A DNA stretch of 25,981 bases, from positions 1-25,981 of IMG/VR virus record IMGVR_UViG_3300006735_000205; one strand, given 5' to 3'. Numbering within the stretch: position 1 is the stretch's first letter; every line of letters begins with the position of its first letter. The position numbers were made by a program, and so were the translations under genes. Below, in pieces: positions 13,095 through 25,981 of the stretch. The notes beneath the pieces are model-generated. The model searched no databases, was not told the origin of the DNA, and saw only the letters and a list, made by a program, of their open reading frames with translations. This DNA is from a virus.

Positions 13095-13838
13095 ATGATT
13101 AGAACGTTACTTTATTTCGCACTGGCTTGTACACCACCAGCAAGTGGACATCTGAATCTTAATTTGGATGCAATTAAAATTCCGAAGGTACAATCAGAAT
13201 TTGATGATACTTATACAGAGGAATTAGATCCATATGCACCAAGAGGACTAAAGGTATCTTACTTATCTTCAGTGGTAATAGGTATTTTTGATGAACGGGG
13301 GCAACTAGGAAGTGGATCTGGGAACTACTTTAAGATGGGAAAACATAGATTTATTATAACTGCTGCTCACGTCGTTGCTCACTCCGACATAGAGATTGTG
13401 CTAATGGAAAAAGGCGGCAAACAAACTGTTGCCGATGTTGCTTACTTGGATGAAAAATCAGACATAGCAGTATTGATTCCAAGAGAAAGATTACGATACA
13501 CCAAAGCAATCCGATTCAGCAGAGATATCAACAACCAAATGGGTGAAAAGATATACCACTGTGGCCACCCTGCAATGACTGGTTGGCATATATCAGAAGG
13601 CACACTAACAGGTGTTAGAGAAGATACTCTTATGGCTAACACATTTGCTTGGCCCGGATCAAGTGGTTCGATTGTATTCGACCAAAGCGGTAGAGTAATC
13701 GGAGTTGTATCAGCAATACGCTTAGACCACATCGGCGGTATCTTTCCGCAATTTATTGAACACATCGTTTTGGTGTCTAATATAAAATCTTTAGACCAAG
13801 ATGTTTTGAAATCGGTACTTAGGGATGCTGGAGGATAA
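13095..13838 (+). CDS. Trypsin-like serine protease, predicted lipoprotein
   Basis: 247 residues. The N-terminus T-L-L-Y-F-A-L-A-C12 is a lipoprotein signal with a lipobox ending in Cys, so the mature protein should be lipid-anchored in the envelope. The chymotrypsin/HtrA fold follows with a complete triad: H92 in I-T-A-A-H-V-V, D123 in K-S-D-I-A-V-L, S190 in P-G-S-S-G-S. There is no PDZ domain. The ribosome site GGGGGGATT lies in a 74-bp spacer. A phage-encoded envelope protease could alter receptors, block superinfection or aid lysis (inference). Confidence 0.88.
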   Translation: MIRTLLYFALACTPPASGHLNLNLDAIKIPKVQSEFDDTYTEELDPYAPRGLKVSYLSSVVIGIFDERGQLGSGSGNYFKMGKHRFIITAAHVVAHSDIEIVLMEKGGKQTVADVAYLDEKSDIAVLIPRERLRYTKAIRFSRDINNQMGEKIYHCGHPAMTGWHISEGTLTGVREDTLMANTFAWPGSSGSIVFDQSGRVIGVVSAIRLDHIGGIFPQFIEHIVLVSNIKSLDQDVLKSVLRDAGG

Positions 13839-14076
13839 TCAAACCTCCTACTCCCCTGATACTATCCCACTAGGATCTTTAGTCCGAGACGGGGAAAAGT
13901 TAGGTATTATATATCGTGAGATCAAGTGTGGAACTTGGACAGATAAGCCGCTTTTCAACTGGAGGACAAACTACGAAATATATTACGAAGATGGCACCGT
14001 TTGTATTATGGGCTCAGAATCTCTCGCTAGACTCATTGAAAGCGGTAAGATTGAGTTATTGGACAACACAGAATGA
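13825..14076 (+). CDS. Small SH3-like protein (family member)
   Basis: 83 residues, overlapping the protease gene by 14 bp. After a short polar N-terminus it shows I-P-L-G-S-L-V-R-D, then L-G-I-I, then Y-E-I-Y-Y-E-D-G-T-V and a closing helix. This is the barrel plan G-D-L-V / G-I-I / V-x-W-x-D-G of the family that fills the rest of the window. It is the most upstream clear member. Function unknown. Confidence 0.6.
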   Translation: MLEDNQTSYSPDTIPLGSLVRDGEKLGIIYREIKCGTWTDKPLFNWRTNYEIYYEDGTVCIMGSESLARLIESGKIELLDNTE

Positions 14077-14300
14077 TGAACTTTTTCGGAACCGACCTAC
14101 TACCCTCCTACCCTGCCCCTCCCTATCATTCAATTGATGATATAATAATCAGCCTTTGGGTTGAATACTTAGAGATAGAGTATGATTCTCCTTACGACGA
14201 AGCACTTACACAACAAAGACTTATGGTCATTGATTGGTTGGTGATGTTTTGGGAAGAAAAGCAGTACGAGATTTATTGTTGTGAACTGTCAAAAAGGTGA
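14073..14300 (+). CDS. Hypothetical protein (75 aa)
   Basis: The start ATGATG at 14073 overlaps the previous stop. The protein begins with a Pro/Tyr-rich segment and then forms two amphipathic helices rich in Trp, Tyr and Glu (S-L-W-V-E-Y-L-E-I-E-Y and R-L-M-V-I-D-W-L-V-M-F-W). No family recognised. It overlaps the next gene by 20 bp. Confidence 0.55.
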   Translation: MMNFFGTDLLPSYPAPPYHSIDDIIISLWVEYLEIEYDSPYDEALTQQRLMVIDWLVMFWEEKQYEIYCCELSKR

Positions 14301-14586
14301 CTTAGTTCTCATAACAAACCTCGATGGCTCCAATGAGACTTGCATCGTTGTTGGGTGTTTTGATGGGAGCGATTACCTATATTGCTTTTGTATTGATACT
14401 AGCATGTACAAATTAGTCTACATAAGGGAAGTACAAGCCATCTTGTGTGAAGCGTTTGATCCCGATTTTCCAGAGGATAGTTTTCTTGATTTAGATTACT
14501 CCTTCTATTCTGCATGTTACGAAGCATACAATTTCTTTCCATCTTATATGAGCGGAGACATAGATGACGATGAGGACGACATTTGA
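14281..14586 (+). CDS. SH3-like protein with acidic tail
   Basis: GTG start at 14281 within the end of the previous gene; 101 residues. The opening M-N-C-Q-K-G-D-L-V-L-I-T-N-L-D-G and following strands (C-I-V-V-G-C-F, Y-C-F-C-I-D) fit the small barrel family. A second half of about 40 residues is Asp/Glu/Phe/Tyr-rich and ends D-D-D-E-D-D-I, which no other member has. The stop codon is followed at once by a degenerate copy of the GGACA/TGTCC hairpin. Confidence 0.55.
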   Translation: MNCQKGDLVLITNLDGSNETCIVVGCFDGSDYLYCFCIDTSMYKLVYIREVQAILCEAFDPDFPEDSFLDLDYSFYSACYEAYNFFPSYMSGDIDDDEDDI

Positions 14587-14601
14587 GGTCAAAAAATGTC
14601 C
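14587..14601 (+). terminator. Degenerate GGACA/TGTCC hairpin without an adjacent promoter
   Basis: GGTCAAAAAATGTCC begins on the base after the stop codon of the previous gene. It is the same inverted repeat seen before the promoters at 16474, 18742, 21496, 22742 and 24146, with one stem mismatch. No promoter follows here, which favours a terminator or 3'-end role over an operator role. Confidence 0.4.
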
Positions 14602-14647
14602 GATTTCCATATACGTCCCATTATTCGGGGATCATAGAGAAGTCCCC

Positions 14648-14821
14648 AAAAAACTTTACATAATTATGAAAACTAAGTAAATAAAAGAGGAGTTTCTCGA
14701 TTTACCGCGTAACTCCGCCTTTGTAGAGATTTTCTACCATATTCATAGGAAAAAACTTTACATAACTATAATCTTCTTTGTAAAAAATTTTACATAATCC
14801 CAAAAACTTTACATAATTATG
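14648..14821. repeat. Four copies of A-rich repeat AAAACTTTACATAA
   Basis: Copies lie at 14648-14668, 14750-14770, 14782-14800 (one C to T change) and 14802-14821. Copies 1 and 4 continue into the 10-bp perfect palindrome CATAATTATG. Spacing is irregular (102, 32 and 19 bp), so they are not phased on the helix. All share orientation. They may be iteron-like or regulator-binding sites. Confidence 0.7.
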
Positions 14822-14830
14822 GAATTGCTG

Positions 14831-14886
14831 CAAAAATAAAATCATGGAAACTGGCCATGATGTAATCACGGATCTTTCACCGTGGA
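14831..14886 (-). ncRNA. Predicted ~55-nt small RNA with two hairpins
   Basis: Transcription from the - strand promoter at 14892-14920 should start near 14886. The RNA would form a first hairpin, CACGG paired with CCGTG (14865-14883 region), and a second, ATCATGG/CCATGAT (14841-14861), followed by TTTATTTTT. No open reading frame fits inside. The target is unknown; it may equally be an aborted antisense or decoy transcript. Confidence 0.5.
14832..14861 (-). terminator. Intrinsic terminator on the - strand
   Basis: Read on the - strand, a 7-bp stem ATCATGG/CCATGAT with a 7-base loop is followed by TTTATTTTT. It ends the predicted small RNA and would keep - strand transcription out of the genes to the left. 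Confidence 0.65.
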
Positions 14887-14891
14887 ATAAC

Positions 14892-14920
14892 ATTATAGCA
14901 CACTGCGTATCGCCTGTCAA
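14892..14920 (-). promoter_or_regulatory. Perfect consensus sigma70 promoter on the - strand
   Basis: On the - strand, TTGACA (14920-14915), a 17-bp spacer and TATAAT (14897-14892). All 12 consensus bases and the ideal spacing are present, the strongest promoter in the window and the only good one on this strand. Confidence 0.85.
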
Positions 14921-15005
14921 GTAGAAATCTTCCCTTCTCATGCATGTAATCCTTATTATACAACAGCCAAAAAATAATTTTCTTCAACAAAGTACAAGAA
15001 AAAAC

Positions 15006-15034
15006 TTGACAACTGAACCACAACGGGATACAAT
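15006..15034 (+). promoter_or_regulatory. sigma70-type promoter for the first operon of the small-gene region
   Basis: TTGACA at 15006-15011, 17-bp spacer, TACAAT at 15029-15034. The spacer and leader differ from the seven later promoters, which have a 16-bp spacer and TACATT. It drives 15064-16471. Confidence 0.82.
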
Positions 15035-15063
15035 ATAGTATAGCCTAAAGTCAGGAGGACATT

Positions 15064-15309: not shown

Positions 15310-15553
15310 AAAAATGAACCAAGAACTTGAAAAGAGATTAGGTCGAGAACCAACCATCCATGAGCAAATAGATATGATTATATTTGCAGTGATAAAAGAT
15401 CGCTTAACGGAACTCTCAGTGTTATATCAATTGAACCAAGAAGAAGAAATAAGAGAACAATACGAACATGCGCTAAAATGCGGAACAGAAATCCAAGACC
15501 GCAATCCAGATATATTTAGTATTGGTGATAGCGATGGTGACGGATATGTTTGA
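15296..15553 (+). CDS. Hypothetical helical protein
   Basis: 85 residues; ATG overlaps the previous gene by 14 bp, with AAAGGAG upstream. The N-terminal half is helical and charged (M-N-Q-E-L-E-K-R-L-G-R-E, then I-H-E-Q-I-D-M-I-I-F-A-V-I-K-D-R-L), followed by more helix and an acidic D-S-D-G-D-G-Y-V tail. No family recognised. Confidence 0.6.
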   Translation: MSAIKKMNQELEKRLGREPTIHEQIDMIIFAVIKDRLTELSVLYQLNQEEEIREQYEHALKCGTEIQDRNPDIFSIGDSDGDGYV

Positions 15554-15800
15554 TATTGGAGACATAGTAAAAACCTTTGATCTCGATGGGCATCACGAAG
15601 AAGTCCTTGGTGTCATTATTGCTCGCGTAACAACATCATACTGGGCAGTGTTCTGGTCGGATGGAGACACTACCTATTCGGAAAGCAAAGAGACAATGAG
15701 GCATCATCATATCGCTCCCGAACAATGGACACCTGTGATGATATGTAAGTATTTAGAGATCTTGGATGATTACGAGGAAAATAATTATGCAACGTGGTGA
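15546..15800 (+). CDS. Small SH3-like protein (family member)
   Basis: The frame opens at 15522, but the ATG at 15546 aligns the start M-F-D-I-G-D-I-V-K with the rest of the family; 84 residues. It carries L-G-V-I-I-A, W-A-V-F-W-S-D-G-D and a late Y-L-E-I-L, followed by a longer tail overlapping the next gene. Loops between the strands are longer than in most members. Confidence 0.65.
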   Translation: MFDIGDIVKTFDLDGHHEEVLGVIIARVTTSYWAVFWSDGDTTYSESKETMRHHHIAPEQWTPVMICKYLEILDDYEENNYATW

Positions 15801-15948
15801 TCTAGTGAGACACAAAACAAAAGGCTGGTTAGGAAAAGTGCGAGAGATAAAAGGCTATCGCGCTTTCATTGATTGGAGTGACGATGAAGGTGTTCGCTTT
15901 CGTTGGGCATGCGTAAAAGAATTAGAGGTGATAAATGAAAATAGGTGA
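15787..15948 (+). CDS. Small SH3-like protein (family member)
   Basis: 53 residues from the ATG at 15787 (GAGGAAAAT upstream; the in-frame start at 15766 lies deep in the previous gene). M-Q-R-G-D-L-V-R-H-K opens it, then L-G-K-V-R-E-I, A-F-I-D-W-S-D-D-E-G and E-L-E-V-I-N-E-N-R. The L-E-V-I codons contain the AGAGGTGAT ribosome site of the next gene, which overlaps it by 14 bp. Confidence 0.75.
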   Translation: MQRGDLVRHKTKGWLGKVREIKGYRAFIDWSDDEGVRFRWACVKELEVINENR

Positions 15949-16123
15949 TTTAGTAAAACACAAACATGGTGTATGGCCGTCAACACCAGCAGCGGTATTT
16001 GTTGGGATTGTAACAGAAATTTGCGAAGAGCCTGCTTTCTCCGGTGATCAAAAAATAGTGGTTTTTTGGCTACAAACAGGTAATTATACTACAGGTGGAA
16101 CCAAGTATCTGGAGGCATTATGA
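15935..16123 (+). CDS. Small SH3-like protein (family member)
   Basis: 62 residues starting M-K-I-G-D-L-V-K-H-K-H-G-V. Later V-G-I-V-T-E-I, V-V-F-W and K-Y-L-E-A-L. In place of W-x-D-G it has F-W-L-Q-T-G. The GGAGG for the following gene lies inside its last codons (CTGGAGGCATTATGA). Confidence 0.75.
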   Translation: MKIGDLVKHKHGVWPSTPAAVFVGIVTEICEEPAFSGDQKIVVFWLQTGNYTTGGTKYLEAL

Positions 16124-16296
16124 TAATAGGTGATTTAGTTATGTGGATAGGCTTGGATGCAGATCATGGTTGCTTAGGGGTTATCACTGAGCATTACCAT
16201 ACGAAAGGCACACCATTCTATACAGTCATATGGCACGATGGCACAAGAGGTACAGGACTGAGGAAAGATGAACTTATGGCCGTGAAGGATGATTGA
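16120..16296 (+). CDS. Small SH3-like protein (58 aa)
   Basis: ATG at 16120 follows GGAGGCATT, and the gene shares four bases with the previous one. The product begins M-I-I-G-D-L-V-M-W-I, then L-G-V-I-T-E-H, Y-T-V-I-W-H-D-G-T-R and ends E-L-M-A-V-K-D-D. It carries all the family landmarks, with A-V in place of E-V-I at the end. Confidence 0.75.
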   Translation: MIIGDLVMWIGLDADHGCLGVITEHYHTKGTPFYTVIWHDGTRGTGLRKDELMAVKDD

Positions 16297-16471
16297 GAAC
16301 GGAGACTTGGTAGTCTTGATATGGTCTTGGAACCAACCAAGTCAAATTGGTATTGTTCTATCTTCTCACATGTATACAGGAAGTAGATGGTACAGAGTTC
16401 GATGGGCAGATGGAGTTGTCTCCGAGGTTGCCGAAGTTGAACTACAAAGATTAAAAGAGGACAAAAAATGA
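16289..16471 (+). CDS. Small SH3-like protein (family member), last of its operon
   Basis: 60 residues: M-I-E-N-G-D-L-V-V-L-I-W, then I-G-I-V-L-S, Y-R-V-R-W-A-D-G-V-V and E-L-Q-R-L. Its stop codon TGA lies inside the GGACA..TGACC inverted repeat at 16459-16473, so the gene end and the next promoter region interlock. Confidence 0.75.
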   Translation: MIENGDLVVLIWSWNQPSQIGIVLSSHMYTGSRWYRVRWADGVVSEVAEVELQRLKEDKK

Positions 16472-16501: not shown

Positions 16502-16531
16502 ATTAGTATAACCAACAAACAGAGGTGACTT

Positions 16532-16702
16532 ATGAAAATAGGTGATATAGTAAGAGACAAAGTGATTAATCAATTAGCAACAGTGACAGACTTCGGTTTT
16601 GATAACGAAGTAGAAGAAGAATACATAGTCATTCAATTATGTGACGGATCAGAAGTGTTAGCAAGTTATGAAGAGTTGGAGGTGATAAATGGAAGTAGGT
16701 GA
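16532..16702 (+). CDS. Small SH3-like protein (56 aa), first of operon
   Basis: ATG at 16532 after an AGAGGTGACTT ribosome site. M-K-I-G-D-I-V-R-D-K, then L-A-T-V-T-D-F, Y-I-V-I-Q-L-C-D-G-S, and E-L-E-V-I-N-G-S-R. The loop between strands is acidic (D-N-E-V-E-E-E). The next ribosome site is the perfect GGAGGTGAT within its L-E-V-I codons; overlap 14 bp. Confidence 0.75.
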   Translation: MKIGDIVRDKVINQLATVTDFGFDNEVEEEYIVIQLCDGSEVLASYEELEVINGSR

Positions 16703-16859
16703 TTTAATAAAAACGATTTACAGGGATGAATATGCCATTGTGACTAAGGTTTGGTTTGCTCCAGCAGCAAACACACTAGCGGCTGAGTTTGTCTATCCTT
16801 CGGATGGAATGGAAGGCTGTCAACCATCGAAGCACATAAAAGAGGTGATAAATGGCTAA
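16689..16859 (+). CDS. Small SH3-like protein (56 aa)
   Basis: ATG at 16689 inside the previous gene. M-E-V-G-D-L-I-K-T-I, A-I-V-T-K-V-W, F-V-Y-P-S-D-G-M and a final K-E-V-I-N-G. The third strand has F-V-Y-P in place of V-x-W. It overlaps the following gene by eight bases. Confidence 0.72.
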   Translation: MEVGDLIKTIYRDEYAIVTKVWFAPAANTLAAEFVYPSDGMEGCQPSKHIKEVING

Positions 16860-17133
16860 TTTACATTGGAATACAAAGAAAGCCCCGTTTGACGAGGCAA
16901 AAGAAAAGATAAAATCCTTAGTGATAGAGGCCACAGAAGGGGCTTTCTTCGTCAAGAAAACCTCGAATGACTGCGGGACAACTATGGACGTATATGCAGA
17001 GACACATGACGTTGATGTATCACCGTGGTCTACTCGTCTGCCGTCCATGTTTATGGGTTGGCGTGTTGTAATGTATACATGCCCAGTGGGTTACATTGGA
17101 GCCTTCCTAGACCTAAAGGGGAACCAGCAATGA
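16852..17133 (+). CDS. Hypothetical protein (93 aa)
   Basis: Ribosome site AGAGGTGATAA. The sequence begins M-A-N-L-H-W-N-T-K-K-A-P-F, has a helix (D-E-A-K-E-K-I-K-S-L-V), then strands with two C-x Cys residues (N-D-C-G-T-T; Y-T-C-P-V-G-Y). It lacks the G-D-L-V start and is not a barrel family member. Family not recognised. Confidence 0.65.
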   Translation: MANLHWNTKKAPFDEAKEKIKSLVIEATEGAFFVKKTSNDCGTTMDVYAETHDVDVSPWSTRLPSMFMGWRVVMYTCPVGYIGAFLDLKGNQQ

Positions 17134-17327
17134 GCCTTCAGATTGGAGACTTAGTGAAGATAAGCCCAGCATATGTATCCCTCGAAGAAAGTTGTCTAAT
17201 TGATTGGATCGGGATAATAATTTCATACCGTGGTCAGGGTCTGGGTGATGAACCAGAGTGGTTCGTCCAATGGGCACACCAACAGCAAAAAGCAGTTGAG
17301 TATGGCTATTATTTGGAGAAGTTATGA
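17130..17327 (+). CDS. Small SH3-like protein (family member)
   Basis: The ATG at 17130 overlaps the previous stop (ATGA); the upstream open frame from 17025 is inside that gene. 65 residues: M-S-L-Q-I-G-D-L-V-K-I-S, W-I-G-I-I-I-S-Y, W-F-V-Q-W-A and Y-Y-L-E-K-L. The next gene starts four bases before its end (TTATGA). Confidence 0.72.
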   Translation: MSLQIGDLVKISPAYVSLEESCLIDWIGIIISYRGQGLGDEPEWFVQWAHQQQKAVEYGYYLEKL

Positions 17328-17476
17328 AAGTAGGGGATTTGGTTTATGCTCCTCAGTATACCTTCTGGGGCTTAGGGGTCATAATAGAGACAGGAAAAGA
17401 TGGATACTTGGTGCATTGGTTTGATGAACCAGTTGCGCAATCTTGGACAGACCATGAAACCTTGGAAGCCCTGTAA
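17324..17476 (+). CDS. Small SH3-like protein (50 aa)
   Basis: M-K-V-G-D-L-V-Y-A-P, L-G-V-I-I-E-T, Y-L-V-H-W-F-D-E and E-T-L-E-A-L. Among the shortest members, close to a minimal barrel. The TTTGGAGAAG ribosome site is in the end of the previous gene. Confidence 0.75.
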   Translation: MKVGDLVYAPQYTFWGLGVIIETGKDGYLVHWFDEPVAQSWTDHETLEAL

Positions 17477-17636
17477 AGGTAAGTCGTTACAGGTAGGTGA
17501 TCTAGTTCTAAACCTAGAAACACCAAAGTGGGGTATAGGAATAATCCTAGAAAAAGGCAACTACGGAGCCTTAGTATGGTGGCCCATCATTACAATAAAA
17601 ACGTGGACAGCAGATGTAGAATTGGAGAAATTGTGA
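17454..17636 (+). CDS. Small SH3-like protein with N-terminal extension
   Basis: The start is uncertain; ATG at 17454 (TTGGACAG upstream) gives 60 residues and overlaps the previous gene by 23 bp. A basic lead, M-K-P-W-K-P-C-K-G-K-S, precedes L-Q-V-G-D-L-V-L-N, then I-G-I-I-L-E-K, A-L-V-W-W and V-E-L-E-K-L. The extension is unusual for the family. Confidence 0.65.
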   Translation: MKPWKPCKGKSLQVGDLVLNLETPKWGIGIILEKGNYGALVWWPIITIKTWTADVELEKL

Positions 17637-17908
17637 TAAGAATAAATAAAAACAAAAAAGCAATCCGAATAGGAGAACTAGTAGTAGTAAAAGAGTGGAA
17701 GGATAACAAAGGGTACGTCTACTCAGATAGGATAGGGATAGTAATGGCCGATGAAGGGACAGATGCCAACGGCCTTGAACAGTGGGGCCGTTGGCATATT
17801 GCTCTTGAAAATGGAGACTATATTGGCTGCTCGTCAAATGAAATAGAAGTTATAGAGGAAATAAAAGATGAACTTACTGGAACTGGAACTATCGCTAAAA
17901 TCGATTGA
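17633..17908 (+). CDS. Larger SH3-like protein
   Basis: GTG start at 17633 overlapping the previous stop; 91 residues. A basic N-terminus (I-R-I-N-K-N-K-K-A) precedes I-R-I-G-E-L-V-V-V-K-E-W, R-I-G-I-V-M-A, W-H-I-A-L-E-N-G and I-E-V-I-E-E. The C-terminal ~14 residues overlap the next gene by 41 bp. The largest of the stand-alone barrels in this operon. Confidence 0.65.
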   Translation: MIRINKNKKAIRIGELVVVKEWKDNKGYVYSDRIGIVMADEGTDANGLEQWGRWHIALENGDYIGCSSNEIEVIEEIKDELTGTGTIAKID

Positions 17909-18074
17909 TATACTTCAAAAAATAGGAGTATATCACTTACAAGACATATCGGACATGATGATCAAGAAGCCGACAATTATTTCTTTAGCCTTGGCGCGAA
18001 TAGCACTATCAGACTTTAGAGAGATAATGAAAGCAAATCTTGAAACTCGATTGGAAGGAGACAAAATATGTTAA
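17868..18074 (+). CDS. RNA polymerase alpha C-terminal-domain-like small protein
   Basis: 68 residues, ribosome site AGAGGAAAT. The sequence L-E-L-S-L-K-S-I-D-I-L-Q-K-I-G-V-Y-H-L-Q-D-I-S follows the alpha-CTD pattern L-S-x-R-S-x-N-x-L-K-x-x-G-I-x-x-V-x-x-L. The later A-L-A-R-I-A-L-S-D-F-R-E-I parallels N-L-G-R-K-S-L-E-E-V-x-x. Length fits the alpha-CTD alone, without the N-terminal assembly domain. The UP-element Arg is replaced by Lys. It might compete with or mimic the host alpha-CTD at promoters. The match was made by eye; other helix-hairpin-helix folds are possible. Confidence 0.55.
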   Translation: MNLLELELSLKSIDILQKIGVYHLQDISDMMIKKPTIISLALARIALSDFREIMKANLETRLEGDKIC

Positions 18075-18727
18075 AGAAAAACAAAAAAACAAAAAGAAGA
18101 TGTGGGTTTTGCAATTCACCGTCTCATAATAGAAAGAATTGCAAGTTAATGAAACAATTCATATCTGATCTAGCATCAGCCAACCAAAACTATCGTAAAG
18201 AGTTCTTCGGTGCTTTCGTTGAACACCACGGGGTATCCGAGGGTGCATTAGTGGAGATTAGAATGGGCGGTAGACGAAAAGAAGGGAGGATGAAAAGACA
18301 AATCGGGATAGTCCAAAACATAGATTGGAATAGTATAAACTTGAGCCTTGCCATAAATCATCCGATTTATGCTGGAAAACTCCCAGTGTCTGTAATTGCC
18401 GAGGGCGAAACATTGACCAGTGATACACCCTTTTGGTACTGGCTTGACAATGAATACCCGTATTATCAAGAAAATGAACTCAAGCCTTTTCTTGCACTAA
18501 ATCATTATTCTGATCAATTTCAAATCTTGAACGTATTATCACAAAGTGATAGCAAGCCTGATCAAAAATGGTTCACTGAAGGGTTCAGCGATGGTTGGGA
18601 ATGGGTTTGCAAAAATAAAAACTTATCGGAACTTAGAGGCACATTTGCTGATTTAATCGAAGAGTGGCATCCCAAGAAGAATACATTAGCCCTACAAGCA
18701 CGACTAAAACGATATAGGAGGAAATAG
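18068..18727 (+). CDS. Zinc-knuckle protein with internal SH3-like domain, paralog 1
   Basis: 219 residues, ribosome site GAAGGAG. After a basic start (K-K-N-K-K-T-K-R-R) comes a CCHC zinc knuckle, C12-x2-C15-x4-H20-x4-C25, a single-stranded nucleic-acid-binding module. A helix (F-I-S-D-L-A-S-A-N-Q-N-Y-R-K) leads to E-G-A-L-V-E-I and I-G-I-V-Q-N-I-D-W, which look like the first strands of the neighbouring small barrels. The C-terminus W-F-T-E-G-F-S-D-G-W-E-W and E-E-W-H-P-K is shared with the paralog at 18802. It ends block 1. An RNA- or ssDNA-binding role is likely. Confidence 0.75.
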   Translation: MLKKNKKTKRRCGFCNSPSHNRKNCKLMKQFISDLASANQNYRKEFFGAFVEHHGVSEGALVEIRMGGRRKEGRMKRQIGIVQNIDWNSINLSLAINHPIYAGKLPVSVIAEGETLTSDTPFWYWLDNEYPYYQENELKPFLALNHYSDQFQILNVLSQSDSKPDQKWFTEGFSDGWEWVCKNKNLSELRGTFADLIEEWHPKKNTLALQARLKRYRRK

Positions 18728-18801: not shown

Positions 18802-19776
18802 GTGAAAATATATGAACAAAGAAGCAAATACAAAAAGAAAGTTCACTGTAAAATCTGTGGGAACGAAGGACACCTATGGACAACCTGTTCAGTTCCCAAG
18901 AAGATGGTGGAATTAAAGAAACAGAACAAAGAACCAGATTTATCCTTGTATGCTGATTATTTCAAAAACATTTACAGCAAAAGAGATCCTTCTGGTAGAC
19001 TACATTATGAATTACACATTTTCACAAGCATGACCCGATACTTGCTTGAGCAAGAAAACCGCAACGCAAAGATGAAAGCAAGGCGAGAAGCAAGAAAAAA
19101 TGCTCGTTCCAATAAAAAGCGGGTAGTTTCTTGCGGCTTTTGTGGAAGCCAAGGACACAACCGCAGAAACTGCACAGTTATGCAGGATTTTGTTAGTGAC
19201 TTATCTAGAACAAATCAAAATTATCGAAAAAGATTTTACAACAAGGTGGTTCAAGAAATAGGTATCTGTGAGGGAGCACTGGTTCAACTCGAAGCGAAGC
19301 ATGTTTTGATAAACAATTCTTGGAAAGAGAACTGGAGGGGGCTTGGTGTTATCACCAAAGTTGATTGGTCTGGTGTTAATCTGGGCCTCTCCCACCAGCA
19401 GTGGGACTGGAAAACAGACTTTACAATAGATGTTTTAGTTAACGGTGATATTATCAAGGTTGAAAAACCAATGGGAAAACTCGTCAAGGACGATATAGAG
19501 CCAGAAGGAGAATTGTTTGAACTCTTCGGTGGCAATGGCGGCGGCTGGAGTCCTTGGGTCGATGAGGTGATTGCTCCTTCGGAGAACATACCCTCCCAAG
19601 AGTGGTTCAATAGTGGGTATGATGATTGCTGGACTTGGTTAACTAAAAAATATACTCTCGGTCAACTAAAAACATATCTTTTACCGACAATTTCAAAATG
19701 GCATCCAGACCAAACCGGTTCTGCTGGAGCGAAACTAAAAAAGAGACTTAAAACATATGGAGGATACTATGGATAA
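18802..19776 (+). CDS. Double zinc-knuckle protein with internal SH3-like domain, paralog 2
   Basis: An in-frame TTG lies at 18790; I prefer the GTG at 18802 because TTGGATG sits at the usual ribosome-site distance. 324 residues. Two CCHC knuckles: C16-C19-H24-C29 (C-K-I-C-G-N-E-G-H) and C111-C114-H119-C124 (C-G-F-C-G-S-Q-G-H), joined by a basic Ala/Arg-rich helix. Then, as in paralog 1, F-V-S-D-L-S-R-T-N-Q-N-Y-R-K, E-G-A-L-V-Q-L, L-G-V-I-T-K-V-D-W, and W-F-N-S-G-Y-D-D-C-W-T-W with K-W-H-P. First gene of block 2, adjacent to paralog 1, implying tandem duplication. Confidence 0.75.
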   Translation: MKIYEQRSKYKKKVHCKICGNEGHLWTTCSVPKKMVELKKQNKEPDLSLYADYFKNIYSKRDPSGRLHYELHIFTSMTRYLLEQENRNAKMKARREARKNARSNKKRVVSCGFCGSQGHNRRNCTVMQDFVSDLSRTNQNYRKRFYNKVVQEIGICEGALVQLEAKHVLINNSWKENWRGLGVITKVDWSGVNLGLSHQQWDWKTDFTIDVLVNGDIIKVEKPMGKLVKDDIEPEGELFELFGGNGGGWSPWVDEVIAPSENIPSQEWFNSGYDDCWTWLTKKYTLGQLKTYLLPTISKWHPDQTGSAGAKLKKRLKTYGGYYG

Positions 19777-20318: not shown

Positions 20319-20319
20319 T

Positions 20320-20347
20320 TTGACAAATCAACTGAACGTGATACATT
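20320..20347 (+). promoter_or_regulatory. Promoter module (-35/-10, inverted repeat degenerate)
   Basis: TTGACA at 20320-20325, a 16-bp spacer ending TGA, TACATT at 20342-20347. Upstream is TTTTAAT as in later modules. The expected inverted repeat is degraded to GGACAAAAAAATCTT at 20295-20309, inside the end of the previous gene. Confidence 0.8.
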
Positions 20348-20378: not shown

Positions 20379-20552
20379 ATGAATGTTGGAGACTTAGTAA
20401 AACACAAACTGATAAAGGAAACTCGACAAGTCGGAATTATCACAGATACATTGCAGTTGGTCACAAGACCGGATCGCAAAAAGTACAAAGTACGTTGGGG
20501 CGATGGTTTTGAAGAATACTGGTTCAGCGAAGAAGAAGTGGAGGCGATATGA
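20379..20552 (+). CDS. Small SH3-like protein (57 aa), first of operon
   Basis: ATG at 20379 after ATGGAGGCTTCA. M-N-V-G-D-L-V-K-H-K, V-G-I-I-T-D-T, Y-K-V-R-W-G-D-G-F-E and E-E-V-E-A-I. The GGAGGCGAT ribosome site of the next gene is inside the V-E-A-I codons. Confidence 0.78.
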   Translation: MNVGDLVKHKLIKETRQVGIITDTLQLVTRPDRKKYKVRWGDGFEEYWFSEEEVEAI

Positions 20553-20722
20553 AATTAGGTGACATCTGCACGGTAAGAACCAGAATAAATTGCAATTACT
20601 GCAAAACAGGAGACATAGTAATCCTGACCCACATAGCCCAGACAATGGTCAGTGGGAGAAATCTCAACACAGGTAGCCTAAATCATTTCTTCAAAAGAGA
20701 ACTGGAGGTCTTGTGTAAATAG
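20549..20722 (+). CDS. Small SH3-like protein (57 aa), divergent
   Basis: ATG at 20549 overlapping the previous stop (ATATGA). M-K-L-G-D-I-C-T-V-R opens it, with C-N-Y-C and a basic middle, ending E-L-E-V-L-C-K. The V-x-W-x-D-G strand is missing and the C-x2-C pair is new, so it may have changed function. Confidence 0.65.
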   Translation: MKLGDICTVRTRINCNYCKTGDIVILTHIAQTMVSGRNLNTGSLNHFFKRELEVLCK

Positions 20723-21470: not shown

Positions 21471-21523
21471 TGGACAATTTTTGTCCACTTTTAATTTGAC
21501 AAATCGGTTGAACGTGATACATT
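21471..21523 (+). promoter_or_regulatory. Promoter module: inverted repeat plus -35/-10
   Basis: Perfect inverted repeat TGGACAA-TTT-TTGTCCA at 21471-21487, the longest stem of the set (7 bp), then CTTTTAA, TTGACA at 21496-21501, 16-bp spacer, TACATT at 21518-21523 with TG one base upstream. Confidence 0.82.
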
Positions 21524-21554
21524 ACTAACATAACCCAAACAGATGGAGGTCACA

Positions 21555-22247
21555 ATGACCATCACTTACGAACAACTCATCGAAACTGCTCTCAACGCAA
21601 CCAAACTAGGCAACACCCGAGATAGCAATACTCTTCATAGTCTGTCTCGCAATTTGCAGTTTTGGGGTTCACTTACTTCTGGGCAGATAAGATATGCCGA
21701 AGCACTTATCGCTCGCAACTCCACTGGAATGGTTACTGAGAGAGACGAAGAGGAAGAAGGCTTTAAGACAAAGTGGCTCGAAGATGACGCTTATCGTGAA
21801 TGGATTATCTTTTTGGCTAAGTTCTTTGCACATTCAGCACAGACTGCATACTGGACACATATCGATAACAGGCGCAGACATGCCAGACGGGTTCTCAGTG
21901 CTTTCCAAGAAAACAAAACACCGGTAGCCAATGATTGCCGTTTGTTGGAGAAATCTAAACTGGCTCCGAAACTTCGAGATACTTTTGATAACCCACCCAT
22001 CTACCCACTAGGCGAACTGGTGCAAGTACGTGCAAGCGAATTGTGCTGGGTTGATACAAGAAATGGTCTTGATAAAGAAATGGGCTTTATCATAGAGGTT
22101 GACGCTGAACCTGTTACAGCAGCGTTCACATATCACAAATCAAAGGGTGGATCTCGTGAATACAGAATTATGTTCCCTTCGGGTGAACTTGTCTATCGAG
22201 AGAACCAAATCAAACTTGTATCCCGAAAGAACCGAGGTAAGAAATGA
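21555..22247 (+). CDS. Helical protein with C-terminal SH3-like domain
   Basis: Start at 21555 (GATGGAGGTCACA). 230 residues. The first ~140 are helical and contain S-G-Q-I-R-Y-A-E-A-L-I, an acidic loop (R-D-E-E-E-E) and an aromatic helix with paired Arg (D-N-R-R-R-H-A-R-R). Residues about 150-225 repeat the barrel plan at larger size: Y-P-L-G-E-L-V-Q-V, G-F-I-I-E-V-D, Y-R-I-M-F-P-S-G and N-Q-I-K-L-V. It heads block 4, followed by three stand-alone barrels, so the domain exists here both fused and free. Confidence 0.72.
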   Translation: MTITYEQLIETALNATKLGNTRDSNTLHSLSRNLQFWGSLTSGQIRYAEALIARNSTGMVTERDEEEEGFKTKWLEDDAYREWIIFLAKFFAHSAQTAYWTHIDNRRRHARRVLSAFQENKTPVANDCRLLEKSKLAPKLRDTFDNPPIYPLGELVQVRASELCWVDTRNGLDKEMGFIIEVDAEPVTAAFTYHKSKGGSREYRIMFPSGELVYRENQIKLVSRKNRGKK

Positions 22248-22375
22248 AAGTAGGTGATTTAGTAATGTTTGGGGATATGATGGGTATCGTCCTATCGATA
22301 GGCGATAAGACGGCTCAGGTTTATTTTGATGGTGGCGAAGCATGCGCAGGTATCCATTGGCTGGAGGTAATATGA
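22244..22375 (+). CDS. Minimal SH3-like protein (43 aa)
   Basis: ATG at 22244 overlapping the previous stop by four bases. M-K-V-G-D-L-V-M-F-G, M-G-I-V-L-S-I, A-Q-V-Y-F-D-G-G and H-W-L-E-V-I. This is the shortest member and nearly defines the minimal barrel. CTGGAGGTA in its L-E-V codons serves the next gene. Confidence 0.75.
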   Translation: MKVGDLVMFGDMMGIVLSIGDKTAQVYFDGGEACAGIHWLEVI

Positions 22376-22548
22376 AAGTAGGAGATTTAGTATTAAGTAT
22401 AAAAAACTGGAACGATAAGTGGAATGAGAAAGCGGGTGTGGGAATAATCACCCGTGTGGATGCTGCCGACCTTTATCTTGTCTATTTCCCAAAGACTGAA
22501 TTGAGTTGGTCAATTCACAAAAGACACATGGAGATGCCATGCAAGTAG
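22372..22548 (+). CDS. Small SH3-like protein (58 aa)
   Basis: M-K-V-G-D-L-V-L-S-I, V-G-I-I-T-R-V-D, Y-L-V-Y-F-P-K-T and a C-terminus H-M-E-M-P-C-K that departs from L-E-V-I. Two Trp residues in the first loop are unusual. Overlaps both neighbours. Confidence 0.75.
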   Translation: MKVGDLVLSIKNWNDKWNEKAGVGIITRVDAADLYLVYFPKTELSWSIHKRHMEMPCK

Positions 22549-22712
22549 GAGACATAGTTGTCGAGAAAAGAATGGAAGCCGTGGGACTCCCTTTTCATGC
22601 TCAACTTTCAATCATAACAAAAATTGACCCCGAGCAACTAAAAGTGATGCTCAAGAACATCCGAACAGGTGGAGAATACTGGCTCTATATCGATACCGTG
22701 GAGCCTATCTAA
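22539..22712 (+). CDS. Small SH3-like protein (57 aa), last of operon
   Basis: ATG at 22539 after ATGGAGATGCC. M-Q-V-G-D-I-V-V-E-K, L-S-I-I-T-K-I-D, L-K-V-M-L-K-N and V-E-P-I. The W-x-D-G strand is replaced by M-L-K-N-I-R-T-G. It is followed by the inverted repeat at 22717. Confidence 0.75.
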   Translation: MQVGDIVVEKRMEAVGLPFHAQLSIITKIDPEQLKVMLKNIRTGGEYWLYIDTVEPI

Positions 22713-22716
22713 AAAC

Positions 22717-22769
22717 GGACAAAAAATGTCCACTGTTTAATTTGACAAATCAACTGAACGTGATACATT
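22717..22769 (+). promoter_or_regulatory. Promoter module: inverted repeat plus -35/-10
   Basis: GGACAAAAAATGTCC at 22717-22731 (5-bp stem), TTGACA at 22742-22747, 16-bp spacer, TACATT at 22764-22769, TG one base before. The spacer is identical to that of the module at 20320. Confidence 0.82.
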
Positions 22770-22800
22770 ACTAATATAACCAACAAACAAGAGGTGTCCA

Positions 22801-23172: not shown

Positions 23173-23173
23173 T

Positions 23174-23341
23174 ATGAAAATAGGTGATTTAGTAAGACAC
23201 GATCAAGGTTTTATTGGTATTATTATTTGTATAGATCCCGAACAGATAGGCGATGACGATGAAGTTGAAGTCGCTTGGAATGATGGTGAAAAATGTAATA
23301 TGTCCGTATGGGATTTGGAGGTGATAAATGGAAGTAGGTGA
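23174..23341 (+). CDS. Small SH3-like protein (55 aa)
   Basis: ATG at 23174, one base after the previous stop codon (frame open earlier inside that gene). M-K-I-G-D-L-V-R-H, I-G-I-I-I-C-I-D, V-E-V-A-W-N-D-G-E and D-L-E-V-I-N-G-S-R. First of six consecutive barrels. The tail N-G-S-R is simply the overlapping start of the next gene read in another frame. Confidence 0.8.
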   Translation: MKIGDLVRHDQGFIGIIICIDPEQIGDDDEVEVAWNDGEKCNMSVWDLEVINGSR

Positions 23342-23495
23342 TTTAGTAAACCCCAAGTACACAAAATCCTTGCTTGGTATTGTCGTTAGACAGTATAAAG
23401 ATGGTACAGGGTTTCTGTGGCGTATCGAGTGGAGCAATCAAAAAAGCAGTTATGAACGAAAAGAGAACTTGGAGGTGATAAATGGAAGTAGGTGA
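23328..23495 (+). CDS. Small SH3-like protein (55 aa)
   Basis: ATG at 23328 behind a perfect GGAGGTGAT. M-E-V-G-D-L-V-N-P-K, L-G-I-V-V-R-Q, W-R-I-E-W-S-N-Q and N-L-E-V-I-N-G-S-R. Second of the six-gene run; overlaps neighbours by 14 bp on both sides. Confidence 0.8.
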   Translation: MEVGDLVNPKYTKSLLGIVVRQYKDGTGFLWRIEWSNQKSSYERKENLEVINGSR

Positions 23496-23643
23496 TTTAG
23501 TAAAATATAAAGATGATGGCGATGTTGGGATCATAATCGAGACAGATCCAGAAATGTATTGCGAGTATAATGTTAAGTGGGGTGATGGTTGTGAAGGCTG
23601 GCATCTTGCTAGTGAAATGGAGGTGATAGATGGAAATAGGTGA
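23482..23643 (+). CDS. Small SH3-like protein (53 aa)
   Basis: M-E-V-G-D-L-V-K-Y-K, V-G-I-I-I-E-T-D, Y-N-V-K-W-G-D-G-C and E-M-E-V-I-D-G-N-R. An acidic first loop (D-D-G-D). Same overlap and ribosome-site arrangement as the previous gene. Confidence 0.8.
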   Translation: MEVGDLVKYKDDGDVGIIIETDPEMYCEYNVKWGDGCEGWHLASEMEVIDGNR

Positions 23644-23785
23644 TTTGGTAAAAAACAAACACACCGGAACATTGGGTGTTGTTGTAAAGATAGTGTTCGA
23701 TACAGATTGTGTCGTTGAGTTTTCTAACGGTGTAAGAACACTAATTCCTTGTGAAGATATGGAGGTGTTAGATGAAAATAGGTGA
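23630..23785 (+). CDS. Small SH3-like protein (51 aa)
   Basis: M-E-I-G-D-L-V-K-N-K, L-G-V-V-V-K-I, C-V-V-E-F-S-N-G-V and D-M-E-V-L-D-E-N-R. F-S-N-G takes the place of W-x-D-G. Fourth of the run. Confidence 0.8.
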   Translation: MEIGDLVKNKHTGTLGVVVKIVFDTDCVVEFSNGVRTLIPCEDMEVLDENR

Positions 23786-23939
23786 TCTGGTAATAGATAA
23801 ACGAGGTGATATAGGTATTGTTACATACGATTATCGACAAAGCAAACTGCCCCAGCCCCATGTATTGGTGCAATGGTGCAATGGTGTTTCAAACTCAATC
23901 CACATACGAAACTTGGAGGTGTTAGATGAAAATAGGTGA
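23772..23939 (+). CDS. Small SH3-like protein (55 aa)
   Basis: M-K-I-G-D-L-V-I-D-K, I-G-I-V-T-Y-D, V-L-V-Q-W-C-N-G-V and N-L-E-V-L-D-E-N-R. The middle loop is Pro/Gln-rich (K-L-P-Q-P-H). Fifth of the run. Confidence 0.8.
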   Translation: MKIGDLVIDKRGDIGIVTYDYRQSKLPQPHVLVQWCNGVSNSIHIRNLEVLDENR

Positions 23940-24117
23940 TTTGGTTCAAATGAAATGCTGTGCTTTCAATGAAATATATGAAGTTATTGAAGAGATAGGG
24001 GTGATTACTGACTTTAGACCAGCAGAACGCAATGGGCAGCGGCTTGTATATTGCAGGGTGCTACTTGGAGACAATTCAACTCATTGGCTTTCACCCGAAG
24101 AGTTCGAGGTCTTATGA
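23926..24117 (+). CDS. Small SH3-like protein (63 aa), last of operon
   Basis: M-K-I-G-D-L-V-Q-M-K-C-C-A-F, I-G-V-I-T-D-F, Y-C-R-V-L-L-G-D-N and E-E-F-E-V-L. Its first loop is the longest of this run. It is followed immediately by the promoter module at 24122. Confidence 0.8.
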   Translation: MKIGDLVQMKCCAFNEIYEVIEEIGVITDFRPAERNGQRLVYCRVLLGDNSTHWLSPEEFEVL

Positions 24118-24121
24118 AAAC

Positions 24122-24173
24122 GGACATTTTTTGTCCACTTTTAATTTGACAAATCAATTGAACGTGATACATT
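24122..24173 (+). promoter_or_regulatory. Promoter module: inverted repeat plus -35/-10
   Basis: GGACATTTTTTGTCC at 24122-24136, then ACTTTTAAT, TTGACA at 24146-24151, 16-bp spacer, TACATT at 24168-24173 with TG one base before. Begins four bases after the previous stop codon. Confidence 0.82.
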
Positions 24174-24205
24174 ACTAATATAACCAAAAAACATCGGAGG
24201 TAACG

Positions 24206-24457
24206 ATGAAGAAATTAACTAATTTAGAGGCCACAATGATAGCCGAAGGTGTTCAAGAAGCCGAAAGCGACGAACAATACATTCAAGCATGGCAACACCT
24301 TATCGACACAGGACTAGCATGGCAACTACAAGGCTTCTTTGGTCGTACTGCTTCCTCAATGATACAAAGTGGGATATGCAACTTGCCCATTAAAAAACAA
24401 CCTAAAAAACCAAAGTCCACAGGTGGACAAACCCCTAGAACTCCACAAGGAGAATAG
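24206..24457 (+). CDS. Small helical hypothetical protein
   Basis: 83 residues, ribosome site TCGGAGG. Residues 1-55 are helical (T-N-L-E-A-T-M-I-A-E-G, then Y-I-Q-A-W-Q-H-L-I-D-T-G-L-A-W-Q-L), the rest a basic Lys/Pro/Thr tail. The helical part recalls a small uncharacterised family common in phages. Function unknown. Confidence 0.7.
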   Translation: MKKLTNLEATMIAEGVQEAESDEQYIQAWQHLIDTGLAWQLQGFFGRTASSMIQSGICNLPIKKQPKKPKSTGGQTPRTPQGE

Positions 24458-24459
24458 AC

Positions 24460-25356
24460 ATGAATATATATAACAACGATGGAAAATCAAGATACAAAAG
24501 TGATCCAAAATGCGGCTACTGCCGAGCAAGAGGACACAACGCAACCCAGTGCCCCCGAGTAGCCGAGGACTATGCTTATTTTACGCAATCTCCCCCCGTG
24601 ATACCCATAGGGATAAGTACCACCCCTAACACATGTAGTTGGTATAAAACCCCGAAGTACTGGGGAGAATGGCACAACAATTGCATAAACGCTTATGCGA
24701 AACAGCAAGCAGCCAAGAAGAAAGCCTCCCGTACTGGTACGCACAGGTCTGCCTCCAAGTGTGGGTTCTGTGGCTCAACAGCCCATAATCGTCGCAACTG
24801 TGATGCAATGGATCAATACACTGCCGATGCTATCGCGGCTAATCGTAATTGGCGAAGAGCATTATACACAAACCTCGTCGAGCAGATGGGTGTTTCCGAA
24901 GGAGCGTTGCTTAATCTCAAGATTTCTGGTGGATATAATCGGGAAGATAAGGACTGTATTGGTATAGTTACCAAGGTAAATTGGGACGAACTATCGTTGT
25001 TTTGTGCTAGTCAAGAGGCTGGAGGTTCTTATTGCTATCGCGATAGCCAGTATCGCCAACAACTCAAGATAAAAGTGCAGATTGATCAGGATATACAAAC
25101 TGTTTCCTTTGGTAGACGTGGATTTGATATACAAATGCCTGACGGTTCCATTCGTAATCTTGTAAAGTATTCTGGTTCTCGATACGATTGCTTTCAACCA
25201 GAGTTTGTATCTGTGCTCTCATCTTCCAACACTCCCCTTGATGAGGAGTGGATAGAGGAAGGACATGCCAAGGCTATGCAGTTCCTGACGAAAAAGCGTT
25301 CACGTAGAAAACTTGATGAACTCGGTATTACCGATCTTATCAAGAAGTGGCTGTGA
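24460..25356 (+). CDS. Double zinc-knuckle protein with internal SH3-like domain, paralog 3
   Basis: 298 residues, two bases after the previous stop; ribosome site AAGGAG. Two CCHC knuckles: C18-C21-H26-C31 (C-G-Y-C-R-A-R-G-H) and C101-C104-H109-C114 (C-G-F-C-G-S-T-A-H). The linker is Pro/Tyr-rich then basic. After the second knuckle it repeats the paralog layout: a helix with A-N-R-N-W-R-R-A-L-Y, E-G-A-L-L-N-L, I-G-I-V-T-K-V-N-W, and a C-terminal helical part with E-E-W-I-E-E-G. The first Cys-rich region differs most between paralogs. Probably RNA- or ssDNA-binding. Confidence 0.75.
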   Translation: MNIYNNDGKSRYKSDPKCGYCRARGHNATQCPRVAEDYAYFTQSPPVIPIGISTTPNTCSWYKTPKYWGEWHNNCINAYAKQQAAKKKASRTGTHRSASKCGFCGSTAHNRRNCDAMDQYTADAIAANRNWRRALYTNLVEQMGVSEGALLNLKISGGYNREDKDCIGIVTKVNWDELSLFCASQEAGGSYCYRDSQYRQQLKIKVQIDQDIQTVSFGRRGFDIQMPDGSIRNLVKYSGSRYDCFQPEFVSVLSSSNTPLDEEWIEEGHAKAMQFLTKKRSRRKLDELGITDLIKKWL

Positions 25357-25384
25357 AAGCAGTCATTTTTTGTCCACTTTTAAT

Positions 25385-25412
25385 TTGACAAATCATTCAA
25401 TCGTGATACATT
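25385..25412 (+). promoter_or_regulatory. Promoter module (-35/-10, imperfect inverted repeat)
   Basis: TTGACA at 25385-25390, 16-bp spacer, TACATT at 25407-25412, TG one base before. The upstream TTTTTTGTCC half (25365-25374) is kept but its left arm is AGTCA, so the hairpin is degraded. Confidence 0.8.
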
Positions 25413-25442
25413 ACTAACATAACCCAAACAAACGGAAACAAT

Positions 25443-25595
25443 ATGAAAGTAGGTGATTTGGTTTACTTCGGTTCCGACAAGACTGTCGGAGTTGTTGTAG
25501 AAATTAAGGAAAATAGCGATTGTAGAGTGCTCTTCGCTGGGCAAATCTATCTATGTGTCCAACATTCATTGGAGGTGATAAATGCAAGTAGGTGA
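25443..25595 (+). CDS. Small SH3-like protein (50 aa), first of operon
   Basis: ATG at 25443 after ACGGAAACAAT, a weaker ribosome site than its neighbours. M-K-V-G-D-L-V-Y-F-G, V-G-V-V-V-E-I, C-R-V-L-F-A-G-Q and S-L-E-V-I-N-A-S-R. Confidence 0.78.
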   Translation: MKVGDLVYFGSDKTVGVVVEIKENSDCRVLFAGQIYLCVQHSLEVINASR

Positions 25596-25752
25596 TTTAG
25601 TAAATGGTCATTTTGGCATGGGTATCATTGTCGAAATAGAACCCGACCCCGAACGGCTAAACCATTCAGTTCGTGTCCTATTCTCAGGAACAGGTACTTG
25701 GACAGACTTTCAGCATTGGTGTAACCCTCAAACCTTGGAGGTGGTAAAATGA
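25582..25752 (+). CDS. Small SH3-like protein (56 aa)
   Basis: M-Q-V-G-D-L-V-N-G-H, M-G-I-I-V-E-I-E, V-R-V-L-F-S-G-T and T-L-E-V-V-K. ATG at 25582 behind GGAGGTGAT, overlapping the previous gene by 14 bp. Confidence 0.78.
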   Translation: MQVGDLVNGHFGMGIIVEIEPDPERLNHSVRVLFSGTGTWTDFQHWCNPQTLEVVK

Positions 25753-25919
25753 AAATAGGTGATTTAGTAAGACACATAGTCCACAGCGGTGCGCTGGGGA
25801 TAATAGTAGATTGGAATGAACTTAACCCAGCAACAGCAAAAGTCCACTGGACTAACAACAGTTGGCCAACATTGTGGATACTCACTCAGGACTTCGAGGT
25901 GATAGATGAAAATAAGTGA
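25749..25919 (+). CDS. Small SH3-like protein (56 aa)
   Basis: M-K-I-G-D-L-V-R-H-I, L-G-I-I-V-D-W, A-K-V-H-W-T-N-N and D-F-E-V-I-D-E-N-K. ATG at 25749 overlaps the previous stop by four bases. Confidence 0.78.
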   Translation: MKIGDLVRHIVHSGALGIIVDWNELNPATAKVHWTNNSWPTLWILTQDFEVIDENK

Positions 25920-25981
25920 TTTAGTAGATGATGGACTTGGTAACATCGGGTTTATCGTGGATCTCGGATGGTTTTATCCTC
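25906..25981 (+). CDS. Small SH3-like protein, cut by the window edge
   Basis: Starts M-K-I-S-D-L-V-D-D-G and continues I-G-F-I-V-D-L-G-W before the window ends. The family Gly at position 4 is Ser here. The array therefore continues beyond the right edge. Confidence 0.72.
   Translation, partial: MKISDLVDDGLGNIGFIVDLGWFYP

Follow-up and report, generated by a model that had tools for sequence, protein, structure and literature searches.

Here, we report a bank of small genes in viral DNA that are predicted to encode SH3-like barrels and are joined to one another by a coding junction common to the bank. The bank lies in the right half of IMGVR_UViG_3300006735_000205, a stretch of 25,981 bases (hereafter the window) that is an entire IMG/VR record and probably a genome fragment; the bank continues past its contig end. 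Whole genes of the bank, here called cassettes, have been gained, lost and replaced between related phages. We are highly confident that the family and its junction architecture are real, while the reading as a whole, in which the junction-joined cassettes form a repertoire of small binding effectors, is given about one chance in two. An earlier note, made from the letters of the window, had drawn attention to the bank and missed the 14-nucleotide overlap junctions, the precise gain and loss of cassettes and the palindrome-promoter modules that are described below.

An iterated profile search (E≤0.01, most members below 1e-8) identified 26 intact barrel genes, all on the plus strand from about 14.3 kb to the end of the window, and a further member that is cut by the contig end (Table 1). 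The tandem bank is thus as real as the earlier note had proposed, with a count of 27 in place of about 28, one of the genes it had included being doubtful; that several operons consist mainly of barrel genes was borne out by the neighbour-pair analysis. The three sense frames of positions 13780-25981 contain 20 copies of the motif M-x(0-4)-[VI]-G-D-[LI]-[VIC], and the other strand and positions 1-13780 none, against a chance level of 0.03 on average and at most 1 in 200 shuffles. Bank genes occupy 4,573 of 12,157 bases; among them lie three zinc-knuckle genes as well as unrelated genes. No interrupted frame was found among the members in the window. Inside one of the bank genes (17633-17908), away from operon ends, there is also a strong 15-pair hairpin at 17763-17797.

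The junction comprises about 30 bases that hold the end of gene n, a ribosome-binding site and the start of gene n+1, with the consensus GGAGGTGATAAATG. Among 20 neighbouring bank pairs in the window, ten overlap by exactly 14 nucleotides and six by 4 (ATGA or GTGA); in the wider set of 71 contig groups described below, 408 of 675 close pairs have the −14 and 109 the −4 arrangement. The −14 overlap is unusual, since those that a 2025 review names as enriched in prokaryotes are −4, −1 and −8 (PMC12548453). In the example TTG GAG GTG ATA AAT GGA AGT AGG TGA T, gene n reads L-E-V-I-N-G-S-R-stop and gene n+1 begins ATG GAA GTA GGT GAT, or M-E-V-G-D, so that the stop codon of gene n sits within the G-D codons of its successor. 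Read in one frame, the junction thereby finishes gene n with its final strand and stop codon (LEVI-NESR-stop); read in the other, it opens gene n+1 and gives its first strand (MKVGDLV). Junctions of the GGAGGTGATAAATGAAAGTAGGTGATTTAGTA type are common to adjacent cassettes and have the Shine-Dalgarno sequence nested in the LEV codons, where GGAGGTGAT matches the anti-Shine-Dalgarno of bacterial ribosomes.

Codon usage follows this double duty. GAG encodes the E of the LEV motif in 297 of 309 cases (96%) before a −14 neighbour and in 43% elsewhere. In the GD motif GGT is a requirement of the −14 pairs, with a frequency of 0.72 in members lacking a close upstream member and of 0.29 elsewhere. 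What looks like a C-terminal LEV[IL] and NESR/NGSR tail is largely the Shine-Dalgarno sequence and start codons of the next gene, read in another frame. The single protein plan that had been described for these genes is accordingly visible in its conserved columns, but its C-terminal end is largely nested start-signal DNA. LEVI-like endings fall from 80% to 41-52% when no close member follows but do not vanish; the strand is therefore real, with the DNA signal folded into it.

With a DNA pattern derived from the junction, 72 stretches were retrieved from IMG/VR, and a collection of bacterial and archaeal genomes gave a single match. This match, L102 (PAQX01000001.1), is a contig of 34,863 bases in a metagenome-assembled genome (MAG) of the Deltaproteobacteria; it probably stems from a phage, having been binned with the MAG, and offers a possible lead to a host. 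With one exception, the loci are uncultured viral contigs. The 68 new viral loci harboured 888 members, all but one on the single bank strand of their locus, and the total came to 1,048 members in 71 contig groups (68 viral loci, G000-G004 and the MAG locus). Having been fetched by the junction pattern, these loci cannot give the frequency of banks without junctions. The relatives known as G004, G003, G002 and G001 (191,696, 112,401, 191,495 and 15,624 bases) held 41, 43, 32 and 28 members, respectively. Lone family members were also seen far outside the banks, at 121019-121246 and 137373-137585 in G004 and at 175440-175694 in G002. A protein of about 230 residues at 21555-22247 of the window has an orthologue in G004 (88261-88968) with a C-terminal match to the barrel profile at E 5e-5, which suggests a barrel fused to a larger protein in that phage.

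Isolated phages gave little. Searching 50,697 phage records with tblastn, one of two window members yielded two Gordonia matches at E 0.2 and the other none, and two members from relatives had no matches. A consensus query against isolated-phage records gave single mycobacteriophage matches, none better than E 0.003. Single-sequence searches revealed no bank in isolated phages, a negative that is weak with queries this short and diverged.

The AlphaFold2 model of the member at 23482-23643, built from a 99-sequence alignment, is a five-stranded barrel (strands 6-9, 15-21, 28-33, 38-42 and 46-50) with a predicted local distance difference test (pLDDT) score of 92.8; it is the one member modelled, and the others are joined to the fold by profile. 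On this model the family is an SH3-like barrel, assigned at the fold level only, in line with the SH3/KOW-like scaffold of the earlier note. Foldseek placed 5ycq, a Lon-enhancing factor (HspQ), on top, along with YorP, Tudor, PWWP and KOW barrels at E values of about 0.01 and template modelling (TM) scores up to about 0.8; uncharacterised viral proteins matched with E values down to 3.6e-5. The best PDB profile match was the NusG KOW region (E 0.0038). KOW in Pfam stayed below its cut-off (best 13.1 bits, 20 needed), as did the HspQ/YccV-like PF08755 (13.4 against 22.8 bits, one member), and KOWx_SPT5 was matched by one of 99 members at 0.0012. The bank as a whole falls under no named family of Pfam or PHROG: at most two of 99 members fall to any Pfam family and five to the best-matching PHROG, the weak matches being to PHROG 1690, 9237, 9730 and 3261, all of unknown function (best E 4e-5).

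In 1,043 aligned members the low-entropy columns are G4, D5, L6, V7, G20, [IVL]21-22, V38, W40 and LEVI at 53-56, while most of the remaining columns are near-random at about 4.1 bits and insertions of up to 23 residues occur between strands. A conserved strand framework with variable loops, as first noted, is thereby upheld. Net charge is centred on 0 and spans −11 to +9 (1st to 99th percentile). The surface shows no conserved basic or aromatic column apart from a weak R/K at position 8, and no column set resembling a Tudor/PWWP aromatic cage was found, only W40 (55%) and W47 (26%) being recurrent.

The members of a bank are old with respect to each other. Compared within a contig, members have a median best identity of 37.5%, and just 8 reach 70%, which argues for old divergence and rejects recent tandem duplication; such divergence also speaks against gene dosage, as the earlier note held. 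The nearest relative lies in another contig for 984 of the 1,048 members; far more candidates exist outside than inside, and this count is not the basis for the age. Bank orthologues are under purifying selection: in 134 cross-contig pairs with usable synonymous divergence (dS), the ratio of nonsynonymous to synonymous divergence (dN/dS) had a median of 0.26 and never exceeded 1. Positive selection on orthologues is rejected by these values, and the diversification suggested earlier is not supported if taken as continuing fast adaptive change. Bank genes were 1.2 to 3.7 times laxer than their neighbours in seven contig comparisons, where samples were small and several dS values saturated. In some comparisons dS was lower in the bank than in the backbone (0.99 versus 1.84 for G004/L088; 0.71 versus 1.45 for L053/L072), as expected if cassette exchange is more recent than backbone divergence. 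Most of the barrel diversity is old, and whole cassettes are its unit of redistribution.

One case of such redistribution is found in L038 and L040, which are identical across the aligned region save for exactly one extra cassette in L038. This cassette is bounded by a 20-bp junction repeat, ATGAAAGTCGGTGATTTGGT, and the breakpoint falls inside the repeat. The two loci come from different IMG metagenomes and are distinct variants, because their remaining members are 92-97% identical. Between L045 and L100 there are two clean insertions and one replacement with the −14 junctions kept, and for two window members (starting at 23174 and 25749; Table 1) the G004 orthologues sit at different places. 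The breakpoint shows the junction repeat as the exchange site in one case; elsewhere the junctions would act in the same way, and we consider junction-mediated exchange of cassettes likely overall.

Five near-identical sigma70-like promoters (TTGACA-16-TACATT with TG before the −10) open operons at 20.3, 21.5, 22.7, 24.1 and 25.4 kb. A GGACA-N5-TGTCC palindrome beside promoter-like sequences is common to the bank operons of the window and four relatives. The bank regions of these five contigs contain 37 palindromes of the form GGACA-N(4-7)-TGTCC where about 0.3 are expected, as compared with 6 in about 450 kb outside the banks, and 43 of 61 aligned palindromes are followed by a −10-like hexamer after 22-23 nucleotides. 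The palindrome is present in just 5 of 69 other loci and therefore belongs to one lineage group and not to banks generally. A role as terminator is disfavoured, for in G002 TCGACA comes directly after it and there is no T-run. Apart from these modules, four copies of a AAAAACTTTACATAATTATG-like repeat at 14646-14824 lie in a 477-nucleotide gap without a called plus-strand gene and adjoin a perfect promoter consensus on the minus strand (14920-14892) and one on the plus strand (15006). This region may be an operator or origin-like.

CCHC zinc-knuckle proteins recur in the banks of 25 of 74 loci, mostly with two knuckles of the CGFCG..GHNRRNC type and a beta-rich C-terminal domain. None reached a Pfam cut-off, no solved fold came close to them, and profile and fold comparisons link them only weakly to the barrel family. 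The left half of the window has a ClpP-like gene (5544-6224) whose closest likeness is to head-maturation proteases, a GroEL gene (8154-9722) with less than 50% identity to any GroEL of the isolated-phage collection, and a trypsin-like gene (13095-13838). The phage GroEL is conserved in G004, G002 and G001, and in G004, the long syntenic relative, the portal and major head proteins are related to their T4-type counterparts. Searches of the window for Rfam families and tRNAs returned none.

Table 1. Bank members, zinc-knuckle genes, type junction and promoter modules in the window
Positions	Strand	Feature	Basis or remark
13825-14076	+	Doubtful member, counted by the earlier note	Profile match only when itself in the query alignment
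14281-14586	+	Weak bank member, 101 residues, GTG start, acidic C-terminal tail	Profile E 1.5e-4
15546-15800	+	Bank member (MFDIGDIVKTF...)	Profile; start and overlap examined
15787-15948	+	Bank member; 14-nt overlap with next	Profile, neighbour pairs
15935-16123	+	Bank member; 4-nt overlap with next	Profile, neighbour pairs
16120-16296	+	Bank member	Profile, neighbour pairs
16289-16471	+	Bank member; G004 orthologue 67% identical	Profile, comparison with G004
16532-16702	+	Bank member; G004 orthologue at another position	Profile, comparison with G004
16689-16859	+	Bank member	Profile, neighbour pairs
17130-17327	+	Bank member	Profile, neighbour pairs
17324-17476	+	Bank member	Profile, neighbour pairs
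17454-17636	+	Bank member (LQVGDLV...; ATG at 17454)	Profile, neighbour pairs
17633-17908	+	Bank member, 91 residues (RIGELVVV...); well conserved orthologues (71-74%)	Profile, comparison with relatives
18068-18727	+	Zinc-knuckle gene embedded in bank	Aligned with the other two
18802-19776	+	Double CCHC zinc-knuckle gene embedded in bank	
20320-20347	+	Promoter P1, TTGACA-16-TACATT, TG before −10	
20379-20552	+	Bank member, first gene of operon P1	Profile, promoter analysis
20549-20722	+	Bank member	Profile
21471-21523	+	Palindrome (TGGACAATTTTTGTCCA) and promoter P2	
22244-22375	+	Bank member, smallest (43 residues)	Profile
22372-22548	+	Bank member	Profile
22539-22712	+	Bank member	Profile
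22717-22769	+	Palindrome (GGACAAAAAATGTCC) and promoter P3	
23174-23341	+	Bank member; G004 orthologue 86% identical, at another position	Profile, comparison with G004
23315-23348	+	Type junction TTGGAGGTGATAAATGGAAGTAGGTGATTTAGTA: gene C-terminus, Shine-Dalgarno, next start; stop TGA within GGTGAT	Layout repeated at nine other window bank junctions
23328-23495	+	Bank member	Profile, neighbour pairs
23482-23643	+	Bank member behind the AlphaFold model	Profile, AlphaFold2, Foldseek
23630-23785	+	Bank member	Profile, neighbour pairs
23772-23939	+	Bank member	Profile, neighbour pairs
23926-24117	+	Bank member, last of its operon	Profile, neighbour pairs
24122-24173	+	Palindrome (GGACATTTTTTGTCC) and promoter P4	
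24460-25356	+	Double CCHC zinc-knuckle gene; beta-rich C-terminal domain	Weak SH3-family match
25385-25412	+	Promoter P5, degenerate palindrome ahead	
25443-25595	+	Bank member, first of operon P5	Profile, promoter analysis
25582-25752	+	Bank member	Profile
25749-25919	+	Bank member; G004 orthologue 61% identical, at a different place	Profile, comparison with G004
25906-25981	+	Bank member, truncated by contig end (MKISDLVDDGLGNIGFIVDLGWFYP); resembles G004 91216-91506	Open frame; profile

The bank may be pictured as tens of SH3-like barrels, each a single domain from a gene of its own, which are ancient, have diverged from one another and are set in operons on one strand. With the junctions all alike, homologous recombination or annealing could swap whole genes and leave both neighbours intact, and the overlaps would couple translation along the operon. 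Host-type promoters would transcribe the operons in a coordinated manner, possibly early, and a regulator may bind the palindromes that adjoin the promoters in the group of the window. The fold would be held by a dozen core positions while each barrel presents its own surface, and the resulting binding effectors could serve takeover or counter-defence, the set in each phage being tuned by cassette turnover instead of fast point mutation. An effector repertoire is preferred because the surfaces share nothing past the core, charge spans the range between acidic and basic, related phages carry different sets and orthologues are nonetheless constrained. This pattern suits many different partners, without saying which, and a role of the barrels against host or competitor factors is accordingly put forward as a plausible, still tentative, proposal.

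Several observations weigh against this interpretation. The effector role is drawn from sequences and models; Foldseek gave no solved relative in PDB at E<0.001, and neither fold nor sequence points to a target family. The dN/dS values show no arms race at single sites, selection on orthologues not being diversifying. Adjacent orthologues are still adjacent in 97 of 113 intervals, many of them from near-identical contigs, and turnover is therefore not rampant in close relatives. The −14 overlap is not the one for which translational coupling is reported to work best (PMC12548453), and the overlap frequencies in loci L034-L102 are biased by their retrieval with the junction pattern, a choice that does not affect the window.

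Other explanations have been considered alongside the effector repertoire. The barrels could be KOW/Tudor-like nucleic-acid binders, that is, small RNA- or DNA-binding regulators engaged in antitermination, mRNA handling or nucleoid remodelling, with the zinc-knuckle genes doing related work. The NusG profile match, fold matches that include single-stranded-DNA-binding PWWP and KOW domains, the recurrence of CCHC proteins and the T4 early protein MotB, which binds DNA and has a predicted KOW N-terminal domain (PMC7827196), all point in this direction. SH3-like barrels take many kinds of ligand, however, so the fold alone does not decide, and the weak link between zinc-knuckle proteins and barrels adds little. 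A generic nucleic-acid binder is further disfavoured by a net charge centred on zero, with 20 of the 26 window members negative, and by a surface lacking conserved basic or aromatic columns beyond position 8; we regard this explanation as unlikely. Members acting as HspQ-like adaptors or modulators of proteases and chaperones, together with host Lon/Clp or the phage ClpP-like and GroEL proteins, would accommodate the Lon specificity-enhancing factor as top PDB fold match, a weak YccV-like match in one member (E 0.1), the two genes upstream of the bank and a SPO1 takeover protein that is a ClpC adaptor (PMC6873191). The Foldseek E value of 0.008 is common to many unrelated barrels and the ClpP-like gene resembles head-maturation proteases, which leaves such adaptors the least probable of the explanations.

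It is also conceivable that the bank is mainly a selfish or neutral accumulation, in which recombination-prone junctions and nested translation signals ease the gain of cassettes and most copies have little function for the phage. Junction DNA in common, exact cassette insertions and deletions, high copy number in many contigs and a choice of codons at gene starts that varies less than elsewhere, also where no neighbour overlaps, would all follow. Gene interiors under purifying selection, intact frames in the window, organised promoters and palindromes, and orthologues kept repeatedly across distant phages are at odds with it and make it improbable. Overlapping genes often encode interacting subunits, and the operons are co-directional, so the barrels might be subunits of one or a few heteromeric assemblies in ratios set by coupled operons. 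Their content and order differ between related phages, though, and single cassettes are lost unreplaced, unlike fixed stoichiometric subunits, which renders this very improbable, almost as much so as the adaptors.

The elements of the effector reading are already known separately, as takeover gene clusters (SPO1), repeated start-site sequences (cluster K) and single KOW-like early proteins (MotB). We know of no shared overlap junctions in the SPO1 module. Like host-takeover modules, the bank has small genes packed into compact operons and strong translation signals, and its promoters are sigma70-like. The SPO1 host takeover module is a cluster of 26 genes whose products target different host processes, a many-gene phage cluster like the bank, yet it is described as different proteins as opposed to 27-43 members of one fold (PMC6873191). 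MotB, likened here by description, is an early protein with a predicted KOW/SH3-like domain from a nonessential region that improves fitness, but it is a two-domain DNA-binding protein in single copy and forms no bank (PMC7827196). The Start Associated Sequences of cluster K mycobacteriophages are likewise repeated, include a ribosome-binding site and lie upstream of many genes; they are 13 bp long and precede genes of different families, whereas the bank repeat also encodes the end and start of two genes from a single family, and their consensus GGGATAGGAGCCC is not matched by that of the junction (PMC3203893). Integron gene cassettes work alike as arrays of interchangeable small genes, but bank junctions are coding, no attC-like inverted repeats span them, and exchange would be homologous instead of site-specific. 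HspQ, YorP of SP-beta, the PHF1/PHF19 Tudor domains, PWWP and NusG KOW share the fold class and differ in the weak profile similarity and the absence of fold matches at E<0.001. No description of a one-fold bank with coding junctions that allow intact gene exchange was found in the open-access literature. It is possible, if rather doubtful, that the bank is a phage-borne modular effector system not described before, in which hundreds of interchangeable single-barrel binders with one coding junction, scar-free exchange and coupled translation would supply host- or defence-specific sets from a common pool.

The junction rule explains a misleading protein motif, C-terminal conservation being partly a ribosome-binding site. 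If the effector reading is true, one fold would serve many environmental phages as a naturally evolved library of binders with at least a thousand members, and a simple DNA rule would govern the swapping of intact genes in and out. The banks would then provide a test bed for counter-defence and takeover proteins, for the trade of small genes among phages and for the translation of overlapping genes.

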